Shown piece after piece: positions 53,396 through 56,957 of a stretch of 64,000 bases of DNA. Each line of letters starts with the position of its first letter. The first letter of the stretch is position 1. Source of the DNA: Bradyrhizobium paxllaeri (lineage in GTDB: Bacteria; Pseudomonadota; Alphaproteobacteria; Rhizobiales; Xanthobacteraceae). The notes under the pieces are model-generated. The model was not told the origin of the DNA. It saw nothing but the letters and a program-made list of their open reading frames with translations, and searched no databases. The DNA lies in NCBI RefSeq assembly GCF_001693515.2, contig NZ_CP042968.1, positions 1,550,001 to 1,614,000 on the forward strand, given 5' to 3'. The position numbers and the translations under genes were made by a program.

Positions 53396-54655
53396 TTGGC
53401 CACCACGCTTCCCCAACTCTCGCTTGCAAAGGACAAGATCCGGGTCTTGCTCCTGGAAGGTGTCAACGACAGCGCCGCGCAGATGATCGAGGCTGCCGGC
53501 TACTCCAACATGACGCGCCTGTCCAAGGCGCTCGAGGGCGATGCGCTGAAGGAGGCCATCAAGGGCGTGCATCTGCTCGGCATCCGCTCGCGCACGCAAA
53601 TCACGCCGGATGTTCTCGACGCCGCGGACCGCCTGATCGCGGTCGGTTGTTTCAGTGTCGGCACCAACCAGGTGGACCTCGACGCCACGCGCCGGGCTGG
53701 CATTCCGGTGTTCAACGCGCCGTTCTCCAACACGCGGAGCGTGGCGGAACTCGTGATCGGCGAGATCGTCATCCTGCTGCGCCGGATCGTCGCGCGCTCG
53801 AATGCGGCCCATGAGGGGCGTTGGGACAAGTCGGCCAACGACAGCTACGAGGTGAGAGGCAAGACGCTCGGCATCATCGGTTACGGCAATATCGGTTCGC
53901 AGCTCTCCAACCTCGCCGAAGCGATGGGCATGCGGGTGATCTTTTATGATCACACCGACAGGCTTCGTCACGGCAACACCGAGCCGACCGCGAACCTGCA
54001 TGAACTCCTGGCGCAAAGCGACGTCGTGAGCCTGCATGTGCCGGAAACTCCCGCCACGCACGGCATGATCGGGCGCGAGGAGATCGCTGCGATCAAGCAC
54101 GGGGCGTATTTCATCAACAACAGCCGCGGCACGGTCGTGGACCTCGAGGCGCTCGCCGACGCGCTGCGCGAGAACAGGCTTCGCGGCGCCGCGGTCGATG
54201 TCTTTCCGGTCGAGCCGCGCTCGAACGCCGATCGCTTCGTCTCGCCGCTGCAGGGACTGGAGAACGTCATCCTGACGCCGCATATCGGCGGCTCGACCGA
54301 GGAGGCGCAGGAGCGCATCGGCGCCGAAGTCGCACGCAAGCTGGTCGATTACAGCGATTCCGGCTCGACCATGGGCGCCGTCAACTTCCCGCAGGTTCAA
54401 TTGCCGTCGCGGCCGTTAGGCACGCGTTTCATTCAGGTGCAGCGTAACCTGCCGGGCATGCTCGGACGTTTGAACGAAGTGCTGGCGCGCCATGCCGTCA
54501 ACATCGCCGCGCAATATTACGAGACCGCCCACGACGTCGGCTACGTGGTGCTTGATGTCGACGCGTCGGCCGCCGACGGCCAGCGCGTGCTCGCGGACAT
54601 AAGGGCGCTGGAAGGCACCATTCGGGCCCGGTTGCTCTATGAGTACAAGACTTGA
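53396..54655 (+). CDS. serA: D-3-phosphoglycerate dehydrogenase (SerA) with ACT domain
   Basis: First enzyme of serine biosynthesis, oxidising 3-phosphoglycerate with NAD+. The 419 residues follow the E. coli-type layout: substrate domain, NAD-binding domain with LGIIGYGNIGSQLSNLAEAMGM (about 162-183), catalytic Arg in NNSRGTVVDL, Glu and His in LTPHIGGSTEEAQ, then a C-terminal ACT domain (about 345-419, QRNLPGMLGRLNEVLARHAVNI) that normally mediates serine inhibition. The start appears to be TTG at 53396. Its 3' end is followed at once by a palindrome holding a group II intron. Confidence 0.93.
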   Translation: MATTLPQLSLAKDKIRVLLLEGVNDSAAQMIEAAGYSNMTRLSKALEGDALKEAIKGVHLLGIRSRTQITPDVLDAADRLIAVGCFSVGTNQVDLDATRRAGIPVFNAPFSNTRSVAELVIGEIVILLRRIVARSNAAHEGRWDKSANDSYEVRGKTLGIIGYGNIGSQLSNLAEAMGMRVIFYDHTDRLRHGNTEPTANLHELLAQSDVVSLHVPETPATHGMIGREEIAAIKHGAYFINNSRGTVVDLEALADALRENRLRGAAVDVFPVEPRSNADRFVSPLQGLENVILTPHIGGSTEEAQERIGAEVARKLVDYSDSGSTMGAVNFPQVQLPSRPLGTRFIQVQRNLPGMLGRLNEVLARHAVNIAAQYYETAHDVGYVVLDVDASAADGQRVLADIRALEGTIRARLLYEYKT

Positions 54656-54662
54656 AACAGAT

Positions 54663-55451
54663 CGTAGCCCGCATGAGCGCAGCGACATGCGGGGCCTCTC
54701 GCAAAGGCTCGAGTTTGGGAAAGAGTGGCCCCCGCATGTCGCTGTGTGCCCCGAAAGGGCGTGTATCACCAGTGGAGGAAGAATCCACCCAGATAGTTGT
54801 CGATAGGTCTGGTAGCTGACGAGCAGGGTGGCTGGGTAACTGGTCACACTGAAGCCTCGTGACAAAGGTCGCCTTGGGCGGTCGAGCAATCCAGCGGGCC
54901 GTAACGTGAGTGAAGCCTGAGCAGGCCTCGAAAGTGAAGATGCGGATGCCGACCCGCCAGCGATACGGGGAAGGCCGCACAGATGGGGAAGCAATCGACG
55001 CGCGCACCCGTCTGATCCGCCGGGGTAATGGGCACGGCACGGTGGAAAGGTGATGCAGGCAACGGGGGAGACCCGTTTGGGCGAGGGTGGCGGCCTCGAC
55101 GTCGCGAAAGGCGGCGGCCGGAACGGGAGTCGGACAGGGTCATAGTACTGATGAAACCGGGTAACTCCGGTGGAGGGAAGGACCCTGACTTCGGGCACGC
55201 CTTTCGAAGGAGCCGAGGAGTGGTGATTGGCGATAAGCCTGCAAACACCAGTTAGCTCCGGACGCTCCTGAGAAGGCTGTACGACAGAACGAAGGCTGAT
55301 CAGTCGTGTGTTCTGTCGTGAAGCCAGTCGGAAAGCCGGATGCCGGAAATCGGCACGTCCGGTTTGATGAGCGGGGAGAGGAAACGGAACGTTGCCGCAT
55401 GGCCCAAGTCACCGCGCCTCTCCTCGACTCTACGCGCTCATGCGGGCTACG
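54663..55451. repeat. Perfect 32-bp-arm palindrome, right arm split by an intron
   Basis: The left arm is 54663-54694. The right arm is in two pieces, 54730-54743 (14 nt) and 55434-55451 (18 nt), which when joined are the exact reverse complement of the left arm. The uninterrupted element would have 32-bp arms and a 35-nt loop. The left arm begins 7 nt after the serA stop codon (CGTAGCCCGCATGAGCGCAG), a sequence of the dispersed Bradyrhizobium type, and probably served as the serA terminator. Confidence 0.9.
54744..55433 (+). ncRNA. Group II intron without an internal ORF
   Basis: A 690-nt insertion with group II hallmarks. The 5' end is GTGTG (consensus GUGYG) and the 3' end is AC (consensus AY). 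A domain V-like hairpin lies at 55333-55365, with the catalytic triad AGC at 55334-55336 paired through a G.U wobble to the closing GTTT, and a GAAA terminal loop. Domain VI pairs GGGGAGAGG (55373-55381) with CCTCTCCTC (55417-55425) and leaves A55427 unpaired, 7 nt from the 3' end, as expected for the branch point. Domain IV is only a hairpin (ACGACAGAAC 55281-55290 with GTTCTGTCGT 55310-55319); no reverse transcriptase frame exists. AGCGAT at 54959-54964 can pair as EBS1 with IBS1 GTCGCT (54738-54743). The boundaries are fixed by the flanking palindrome. It would need a maturase in trans. Confidence 0.88.
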
Positions 55452-55486: not shown

Positions 55487-56839
55487 CTACGACAGCCGCA
55501 TGTCGAGCAGCCGTCGCCCCTCGGTCTTCAGCAGCTTCTTTACCGCGCTCGAAGCTGCGATTTCGCCCTGGTTGGCGTAAGCCTCGTGGTTCTTCTCGAT
55601 GTCTTCGAGCCGGTAGAGGTAGTTGACCATGATGCCGGCGGATTCGCGCAGGCCCTTGGGCGAGAGATCGCCGAGCCAGTCGATCTTTTCCAGCCGCGCG
55701 CCGTTGCCGATGTGGAAGCGGGCGACCGAATCGACCAGCCGTCCTTTGGACGTGCGGGCTTTGAGGAAATAATGCGCCGCCAAGGGCTCGATCACGGTGC
55801 GCAGTTGCGCCGTCAGTTCCGCATCCTCGAACCAGTCCGGTCTGTCGAGAGCCTCCAGCAGCGTCCGCTCCTCGTCGCTGAGCGGAACGTCGTCGCCCTT
55901 TTTCAGCCACTGCATGAAGCCCGGCACCGGCGACAGCGTGATGAAGGTATCGAGCTTCGGCAATTCGCGCCGCAATTCCTCGGCCACCTGCTTGATCAGG
56001 AAGCTGCCGAAGGAAATGCCGCCGAGCCCCTTCTGCGTGTTCGAGATCGAATAGAACACGGCGGTGCGCGCGCGTTCGATCGGCACCGGCTGACGCTCGG
56101 CTGCGAGCAGCGGCGCGATCGCGGTCGGTATGGCCTCGGTCAGCGCGACCTCGACGAAGATCAGCGGTTCGTCGTTGAGCTGGGGATGGAAGAAGGCATA
56201 GCAGCGGCGATCGACCGGATCGATGCGGCGGCGTAAATCGTTCCAGTCGCGGATTTCGTGCACGGCCTCATAGCGAATGATCTGTTCCAGAATATTGGCC
56301 GGCGTCGACCAATCGATCCTGCGCAGCACGAGAAATCCCCTGTTGAACCAAGAAGACAATAGATGCACGACGTCGCGGTCGAGCGCGGCCAGATCCTTGT
56401 TGCCCTTCATCAGGGCAAGCAGGTCGGCGCGCATCGCCACCAGGTCGCTGGTGCCGCCGGGCGCGCGGTTGAGCCGGCGGATCAGCTCCTGACGCCGCGG
56501 CTCGGAAGCAAAGTGGAGATCGCTGGCGTCAGAATCGTTCGGGTGGCTGCGCCAGCTCTCGATCGCCTGCGACAACTTCTCGCGGTCGGGGCCGAAGTCG
56601 CGGGCCAGCGCTTCGAAGAAGGTGAGGCGATGGGCGGCGTCGAGGTCGTGGTAGCGATCGAGCACGTCGCGCGCCAGTGCGGTGGCGGACGCTTCGCCGC
56701 GGCCCGACAGCAAGGCCTCGCAGAGTTCAAGCAGTTCGGAGGAGTCCTGGCGGGCGACCGATGGATCGCCCCTGCGCAGCAGCGTACGGCTACGTTCTGA
56801 GATCGTTGCGAGAAGGTCGGAGAAAAAGGCGTTGGCCAT
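55487..56839 (-). CDS. Malonyl-CoA decarboxylase
   Basis: Decarboxylates malonyl-CoA to acetyl-CoA. The 450 residues match the MCD family: an N-terminal helical domain (about 1-160), then a GNAT-like catalytic domain with CYAFFHPQLNDEPLIFVEVALT (two blocks), FYSISNTQKGLGGISFGSFLIKQV and FITLSPVPGFMQWL, which holds the catalytic Ser/His region. ATG 56839 (MANAFFSDLLATISERSR) is chosen over a start at 56938. It lies 118 bp downstream of the leftward AraC gene. No malonate transporter or malonyl-CoA synthetase is adjacent, apart from a neighbouring MFS gene of unknown substrate. Confidence 0.93.
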   Translation of the reverse strand: MANAFFSDLLATISERSRTLLRRGDPSVARQDSSELLELCEALLSGRGEASATALARDVLDRYHDLDAAHRLTFFEALARDFGPDREKLSQAIESWRSHPNDSDASDLHFASEPRRQELIRRLNRAPGGTSDLVAMRADLLALMKGNKDLAALDRDVVHLLSSWFNRGFLVLRRIDWSTPANILEQIIRYEAVHEIRDWNDLRRRIDPVDRRCYAFFHPQLNDEPLIFVEVALTEAIPTAIAPLLAAERQPVPIERARTAVFYSISNTQKGLGGISFGSFLIKQVAEELRRELPKLDTFITLSPVPGFMQWLKKGDDVPLSDEERTLLEALDRPDWFEDAELTAQLRTVIEPLAAHYFLKARTSKGRLVDSVARFHIGNGARLEKIDWLGDLSPKGLRESAGIMVNYLYRLEDIEKNHEAYANQGEIAASSAVKKLLKTEGRRLLDMRLS

Positions 56840-56957
56840 GCGGTTAAGTCGAATCCAGTGAGGGTGCCGGAAACTTATACGGAATTTAGGGCGGTGCCGA
56901 TCACAATCAAGCGTATGGACTGTACAGAAATATGTCACGCCTCCGCAAAGGGATTAC

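Follow-up and report, generated by a model that had tools for sequence, protein, structure and literature searches.

A two-copy ORF-less group II intron in REP hairpin loops of Bradyrhizobium paxllaeri, probably homing with a helper in trans

What interrupts one arm of a dispersed palindrome in the genome of Bradyrhizobium paxllaeri, and how could an element that encodes no reverse transcriptase (RT) have reached this place? The locus lies in a window of 64,000 nucleotides (contig NZ_CP042968.1, positions 1,550,001 to 1,614,000 of the forward strand), and positions below are those of the window unless another contig or locus is named. The first-pass annotation, made from the letters alone, had proposed an ORF-less group II intron inserted precisely into the arm, and had suggested a covariance-model search as well as searches for further copies, for a related full-length intron with an ORF and for empty palindromes. 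The features of the locus are listed here.

54663..54694, minus strand: intact left REP arm, matched as a minus-strand REP; its reverse complement is the interrupted right arm
54730..54743, plus strand: 5′ half of the interrupted right REP arm (5′ exon)
54744..55433, plus strand: ORF-less group II intron, copy a, 690 nt, assigned by Rfam matches and a second copy of the same length
54770..54909, plus strand: part of domain I, Rfam group-II-D1D4-4 (RF02003), 97.4 bits
55221..55326, plus strand: domain IV region without an RT ORF, comprising a relic of the 5′ end of the ORF and a hairpin at 55275-55325
55333..55365, plus strand: domain V (DV) hairpin with AGC, from an RF00029 match spanning 55331-55433 and the consensus fold
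55369..55430, plus strand: domain VI (DVI), with an unpaired A at 55427, the seventh base from the 3′ end
55434..55451, plus strand: 3′ half of the interrupted right REP arm (3′ exon)
55487..56938, other strand: malonyl-CoA decarboxylase gene

The covariance-model search clearly bore out the intron: two group II models of Rfam matched above their gathering scores, RF02003 for part of domain I (97.4 bits, cut-off 49) and RF00029 for DV-DVI at 55331-55433 (46 bits, cut-off 40). The ends, GTGTG...AC, agree with the GUGYG/AY of group II introns in both copies carried by the host genome. The DV hairpin with its AGC and the unpaired A of DVI are present as the first-pass annotation had described them, and in the consensus fold this A sits within a conserved domain VI helix. 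RNAalifold predicted 137 pairs in D1-D3 from 17 family members, and in 39 of them at least one sequence is changed on both sides with pairing kept, RF02003 covering only part of D1 and the D2/D3 fold being that of the alignment consensus; for DV-DVI (16 members), the same holds for 8 of the 32 predicted pairs. Since two Rfam models score above their gathering thresholds, a second copy has the same ends and the family alignment supports the fold, the assignment goes beyond chance, and 54744-55433 is a complete ORF-less group II intron. The possibility that the 690 nt are a fragment is ruled out, as neither end is missing, DV/DVI is there and the second copy is equally long. Membership in a host gene is ruled out by the neighbours, a 2-hydroxyacid dehydrogenase gene ending at 54655 and the malonyl-CoA decarboxylase gene; both host copies are intergenic.

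When 54730-54743 and 55434-55451 are joined, they give the exact reverse complement of the 32 bases at 54663-54694, so that the claim that removal of exactly 690 nt restores a perfect 32-bp arm holds true. The further claim that the junctions are known from this match stood in so far as no base was duplicated or lost, but not to the last base: the intron and the 3′ exon both start with G, and the match is equally perfect if the cut shifts by one position. This ambiguity of the palindrome is settled by the group II ends together with the EBS1-IBS1 pairing described below. A mobile DNA element with target duplication is ruled out, because the rejoined flanks show neither duplication nor loss, the one-base ambiguity aside.

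The target is a dispersed palindrome ending in GTAG, as is visible in the sites displayed. In the host genome, CCCGSATNNCGCTNCGCTCATSCGGG has 40 matches at no more than two mismatches, including the left arm of the window; 28 are exact, and a reversed control gave 0. The expectation of many potential landing sites was thereby confirmed, and empty palindromes are found among these sites. Counting by eye, 13 pairs (26 of the 40 sites) are inverted within 100 bp, and the loop reads TGTCGCT, the form occupied by both host intron copies, in 18 sites and TATCGCT in 14. As folded DNA, the two occupied host REPs are unusually stable, only 3 and 1 of 200 shuffles being as stable; the fold is less clearly stable for the TATCGCT variant (9 of 200).

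The search for further copies gave one more, in another REP.

C1:5749846-5750535, minus strand: copy b of the intron, 690 nt, 99% identical to copy a

The host genome (8.38 Mb, one contig) thus holds exactly two copies, all 21 candidates of the search having been scored. Copy a sits in CCCCGCATGTCGCT^GCGCTCATGCGGGCTACG and copy b in CCCCGGATGTCGCT^GCGCTCATCCGGGCTAC, at the same point in the middle of the REP hairpin loop. The stems of the two REPs differ by a matched change (CCCCGCATG..CATGCGGG vs. CCCCGGATG..CATCCGGG), and the outer flanks are unrelated, which indicates two independent insertions into different repeats. Of the seven differences between the copies, three arose on copy a and four on copy b, as polarised with the related introns of genomes G005 and G190, and the copies are identical in domain IV (36 of 36 compared positions) and in DV-DVI (114 of 114). 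At the site orthologous to that of copy b in G062 (flank 95% identical), the intron is absent and GAGCGCAGCG is intact in a diverged palindrome. At the copy a site in G247 (flank 92%), the left arm is kept, the intron is absent and most of the right arm is missing; among the loci of 29 relatives, several of them seen to 300 nt only, none is a perfect empty counterpart of the copy a site. The partner REP arm of copy b (L002:2191-2300) carries an insert of about 37 bp in its loop, shared by G062 (L199), which has no intron there.

How the intron could recognise such loops was approached by a covariation scan of 60 family copies in 16 loop classes (two of which differ only by unread bases), with G091a and G017 left out. 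The elements concerned are as follows.

54737..54743, plus strand: IBS1, TGTCGCT, from the covariation scan
54959..54965, plus strand: EBS1, AGCGATA, in a loop closed by CCC/GGG
55028, plus strand: weak EBS3 candidate, A (intron position 285), which would not pair with the G of the 3′ exon

A 6-base window at intron position 216 reached 5.06 of 6 pairs with its own IBS1 and 2.72 with those of other classes, a gap of 2.35 as compared to 0.55 for the next best D1-D3 window. In the window intron, EBS1 and IBS1 form seven predicted pairs, one of them G-U. Judged by this covariation, EBS1 is predicted to pair with the REP loop, and it co-varies with the target across the family. No window stood out for an EBS2-IBS2 pairing in the same 60 copies (best gap 0.56). 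For EBS3, position 285 scored best, with pairing in 44 of 49 copies (a good part of them near-identical), and other columns reach 0.88; in neither host copy does the candidate A pair with the G of the 3′ exon.

Of the 265 genomes searched in the genus, 84 have a match to the intron family; as roughly two candidates were scored in each, copy counts are lower bounds; 115 plasmid records also hold family members, ORF-less and ORF-bearing forms being counted together. The closest full-length form, of the Rfam D1D4-4 type, is that of G005 (C1:5261971-5263898, 1928 nt); the related intron with an ORF that the first-pass annotation had suggested looking for thus exists in a relative, but it is absent from the host genome. 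The G005 intron shares with the host intron its ends, 402 of 446 positions in D1-D3, 111 of 114 in DV-DVI and insertion in a REP loop (CCCCGGATTGCGCT^TCGCTCCATCCGGGCTGCG), where the hairpin is not clearly above shuffles (z -1.67, 13 of 200 as stable). It differs in having an intact RT/maturase of about 457 aa, with RVT_1 and GIIM and no other Pfam domain, and in its EBS1, AGCGTAA. In G190, too, the intron is inserted in a REP loop, and in G237, G236 and G051 the intron 3′ ends run on into REP sequence, the 3′ side alone being readable. In total, all seven close copies with a readable 3′ junction (six genomes; three copies seen at the 3′ side only) lie in REPs, close copies being those fetched that have a tail at least 95% identical to the host intron and reach the 3′ end. 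Copies of lower tail identity (G081, G169, G136, G196) lie outside REPs, and other clades of the family have other targets with matching EBS1. Short DV-only matches (e.g., G004, G233, G063, G095) were fetched in part, and the fetched G063 stops before the 3′ end.

Several observations concern the wider family. One clade (L022, L028, L029, L039 and others) has its insertions in a conserved coding-like motif, TATGTGAAGCC.TACG^T, which we take to be typical of IS110-type transposase genes. The genome G042 (L118-L129) holds seven ORF-less, several ORF-bearing and several twintron copies, inserted at TTGGCA^C and often flanked by a TGTCCG..CGGACA-like inverted sequence. In L102 (G190), L123 and L127 (both G042), a group II intron of the D1D4-6 class lies within a D1D4-4 intron, between DV and DVI at 630|631, and G051 (L230) has an unclassified sequence of about 2 kb at 621|622, directly behind DV.

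Alignment with the G005 intron shows what became of the ORF. Domain IV of the host intron, about 105 nt long, retains the first part of the RT ORF, with ATA (55233-55235) where G005 has ATG, and after this 5′ relic it jumps to the stretch immediately preceding DV; the hairpin at 55275-55325 is strong (z -4.40). The description of domain IV as a bare hairpin without RT was therefore right as to the missing RT ORF, but overlooked the relic. The intron-encoded RT that autonomous mobility would demand is absent within 54744-55433. By these alignments, the host intron is a deletion derivative of an ORF-bearing form, and its sequence sets it apart from ORF-less forms elsewhere. A 25-base piece of its domain IV had 0 exact matches in 84,980 species, a set from which its own genome was possibly left out.

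Is there, then, a protein in the host that could serve the intron in trans? PF00078 gave nine matches in seven host proteins, one of them below the cut-off, and five group II-type RTs are encoded in open frames. Compared with the G005 protein, the host matches are 33-36% identical over stretches of about 360-400 aa, 40% identical over one of about 210 aa and, for the last, 30%. The ORF-bearing clades of the family are 49-78% identical to this protein, so that the far lower values in the host indicate that no close helper is encoded: among the host RTs the best identity was 40%, and the DNA search of the host genome found no related ORF-bearing intron, all 21 candidates scored giving just the two ORF-less copies. 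As the host lacks a close helper, both copies most likely owe their movement to one acting in trans, which either has been lost since or was foreign; probably it was a close relative since lost from the host genome, and a foreign host RT is less likely. Of the ten searched genomes in which an ORF-less copy looks intact, five lack any match above 45% (G000, G250, G207, G083, G091; three drafts), and the other five have one (G042, G236, G159, G066, G039). The host also carries a second, unrelated ORF-less group II intron (Rfam D1D4-3; approximately L015:8968-9619, C1 ~423.0-423.6 kb), which lies directly behind a terminator-like hairpin and has an ORF-bearing relative, 76-91% identical, at C1:5310.4-5312.4 kb.

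Taken together, the data lead us to favour, with a probability of roughly 0.7, a non-autonomous group II intron that homes to REP hairpin loops. The comparisons show that an ORF-bearing ancestor, of the type that persists in the REP loop of G005, lost most of its RT/maturase ORF by an internal deletion in domain IV, that the ribozyme core retained its fold, and that ORF-less copies with the same domain IV occupy two different REPs at the same loop position. To get there, the intron RNA would have been bound by an RT/maturase supplied in trans and would have reverse-spliced into the REP loop via EBS1-IBS1, AGCGATA pairing with TGTCGCT or, perfectly, with TATCGCT. Copying at the REP would probably take place on single-stranded DNA at the replication fork, a route that we infer because the G005 protein has RT and maturase domains and no endonuclease domain.

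The strongest rival, which we nevertheless consider unlikely, is that both copies are dead relics: an ORF-bearing parent was copied into the REPs, both copies later became inactive, and neither splices nor moves now. The absence of a related RT from the host, the EBS3 mismatch and the failure to find EBS2 would fit this, as would the intergenic position of the copies, where no gene needs splicing. However, the ORF-less domain IV is identical in both copies, and it is simpler to assume that the intron moved once its ORF was gone than that the same deletion happened twice; the 111 of 114 identical positions shared with G005 in DV-DVI also speak against decay. Base pairs, too, have been kept on the intron's own branch. 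Since the split from G005/G190, the 42 substitutions on the copy a branch touch 17 ancestral pairs and break 4, as compared to 15.9 (sd 2.5) at random, and none of 5000 random placements of the same changes broke as few, with the structure coming from an alignment that includes the host intron and with a branch that may partly predate ORF loss. On the copy b branch, 43 substitutions touch 20 pairs and break 5. This conservation supports, without proving, function after ORF loss, splicing itself being a prediction.

Somewhat less probable still is that the host now encodes a non-cognate RT/maturase, from another group II class, which splices and mobilises the intron. Five group II-type RTs are indeed at hand, Rfam puts several other group II classes beside them, and the ORF-less copies of G250, G207, G083 and G091 likewise occur without a match above 45% (three drafts). 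Against this, the identity of the host RTs to the cognate protein is just 33-36% over long range (40% over some 210 aa), and a maturase usually serves introns of its own type. It is very improbable that copy b arose by movement at the DNA level, through RAYT mobilisation of an intron-bearing REP pair or REP recombination, and not by retrohoming: GTAG-type REPs are considered to be moved by RAYT transposases (PMC3733652), and the host REPs lie mostly in inverted pairs, but the stems of the two occupied REPs are not the same, with matched changes on either side of the intron, and relatives have the same insertion point in further REP variants.

Homing of a non-autonomous intron, the reading that we prefer, may have parallels elsewhere in the genus. 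Among 19 short copies, 13 elsewhere are of an ORF-less type A and 2 of a type B, G041 and G017 being damaged and left unclassed; the host form, type C, was seen only in the host genome, and the type A module is present in 8 of 265 genomes. Over the 68 positions compared, type A modules are 96-99% identical between introns with D1-D3 only 81-82% identical (G042a or G250 vs. G207 or G236a; loci L088, L118-L122 for G042, L041 for G207, L020 for G250, L064 for G236). The cores of the same introns are 98-99% identical to ORF-bearing introns of their own clades (G042a-G042h, G207-G236b). A tree of the family, leaving out G017, G041, G091b, G039b and 11 exact duplicates, calls for two or more changes to account for type A. 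A simple reading is opposed by the comparisons inside one clade, where conservation of the module does not exceed that of the core (91% vs. 96% for G207-G039a; 93% vs. 93% for G207-G083). The best reading of these comparisons is that the ORF-less module was exchanged between cores. More speculatively, and with considerable doubt, the genus might harbour non-autonomous, SINE-like group II introns whose ORF-less domain IV modules move from one diverged ribozyme core to another through recombination or RT template switching. ORF-less introns would in this way keep gaining current cores and targets (REP loops, other palindromes), and they would live off trans helpers even in genomes without a cognate helper; the window intron would be their REP-specialised member.

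Group II introns and their ORF-less forms are already known (PMC4424553), as are occasional insertions in REPs, two of nine in Pseudomonas putida (PMC1525189). C.te.I1 of Clostridium tetani resembles the host intron in being ORF-less with no related IEP in the genome (PMC4424553), but it resides within the gene of a surface-layer protein, where it undergoes alternative splicing (PMC3919590, PMC4424553), whereas the host intron is intergenic and sits in two REPs. The group II intron of P. putida KT2440 is likewise found in REP elements, with two of nine copies (PMC1525189); there REPs are a minority of the sites, whereas the host clade has seven of seven readable junctions in them, the comparison being one of sites and not of the two intron sequences. 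Group IIC introns share hairpin-associated targeting with the host intron, but they insert at terminator motifs or attC (PMC4424553). The host intron lies inside a REP loop, and its D1 matches RF02003, both of which place it outside IIC, if only weakly so in the case of D1. The target resembles the GTAG-tagged REPs of Bradyrhizobium (PMC3733652) in its GTAG end, palindromic stem and head-to-head dimers, a likeness of general type that implies no exact family such as GTAG-3 or GTAG-14. Group II introns are not mentioned in the accessible part of that account (PMC3733652), and our open-access literature search found no description of the host intron. Within this literature, what is new is the combination of a REP-loop-specific clade, a two-copy ORF-less derivative and the lack of a close helper in a single-contig genome.

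The findings link group II introns with REPs, repeats that provide tens of landing sites between genes, where an insertion leaves every gene intact. In a single-contig genome that lacks a close helper, an ORF-less form has come to occupy two separate sites, with base pairs that look constrained. The host intron and the G005-type protein thus make up a natural pair with which mobilisation in trans is directly testable.
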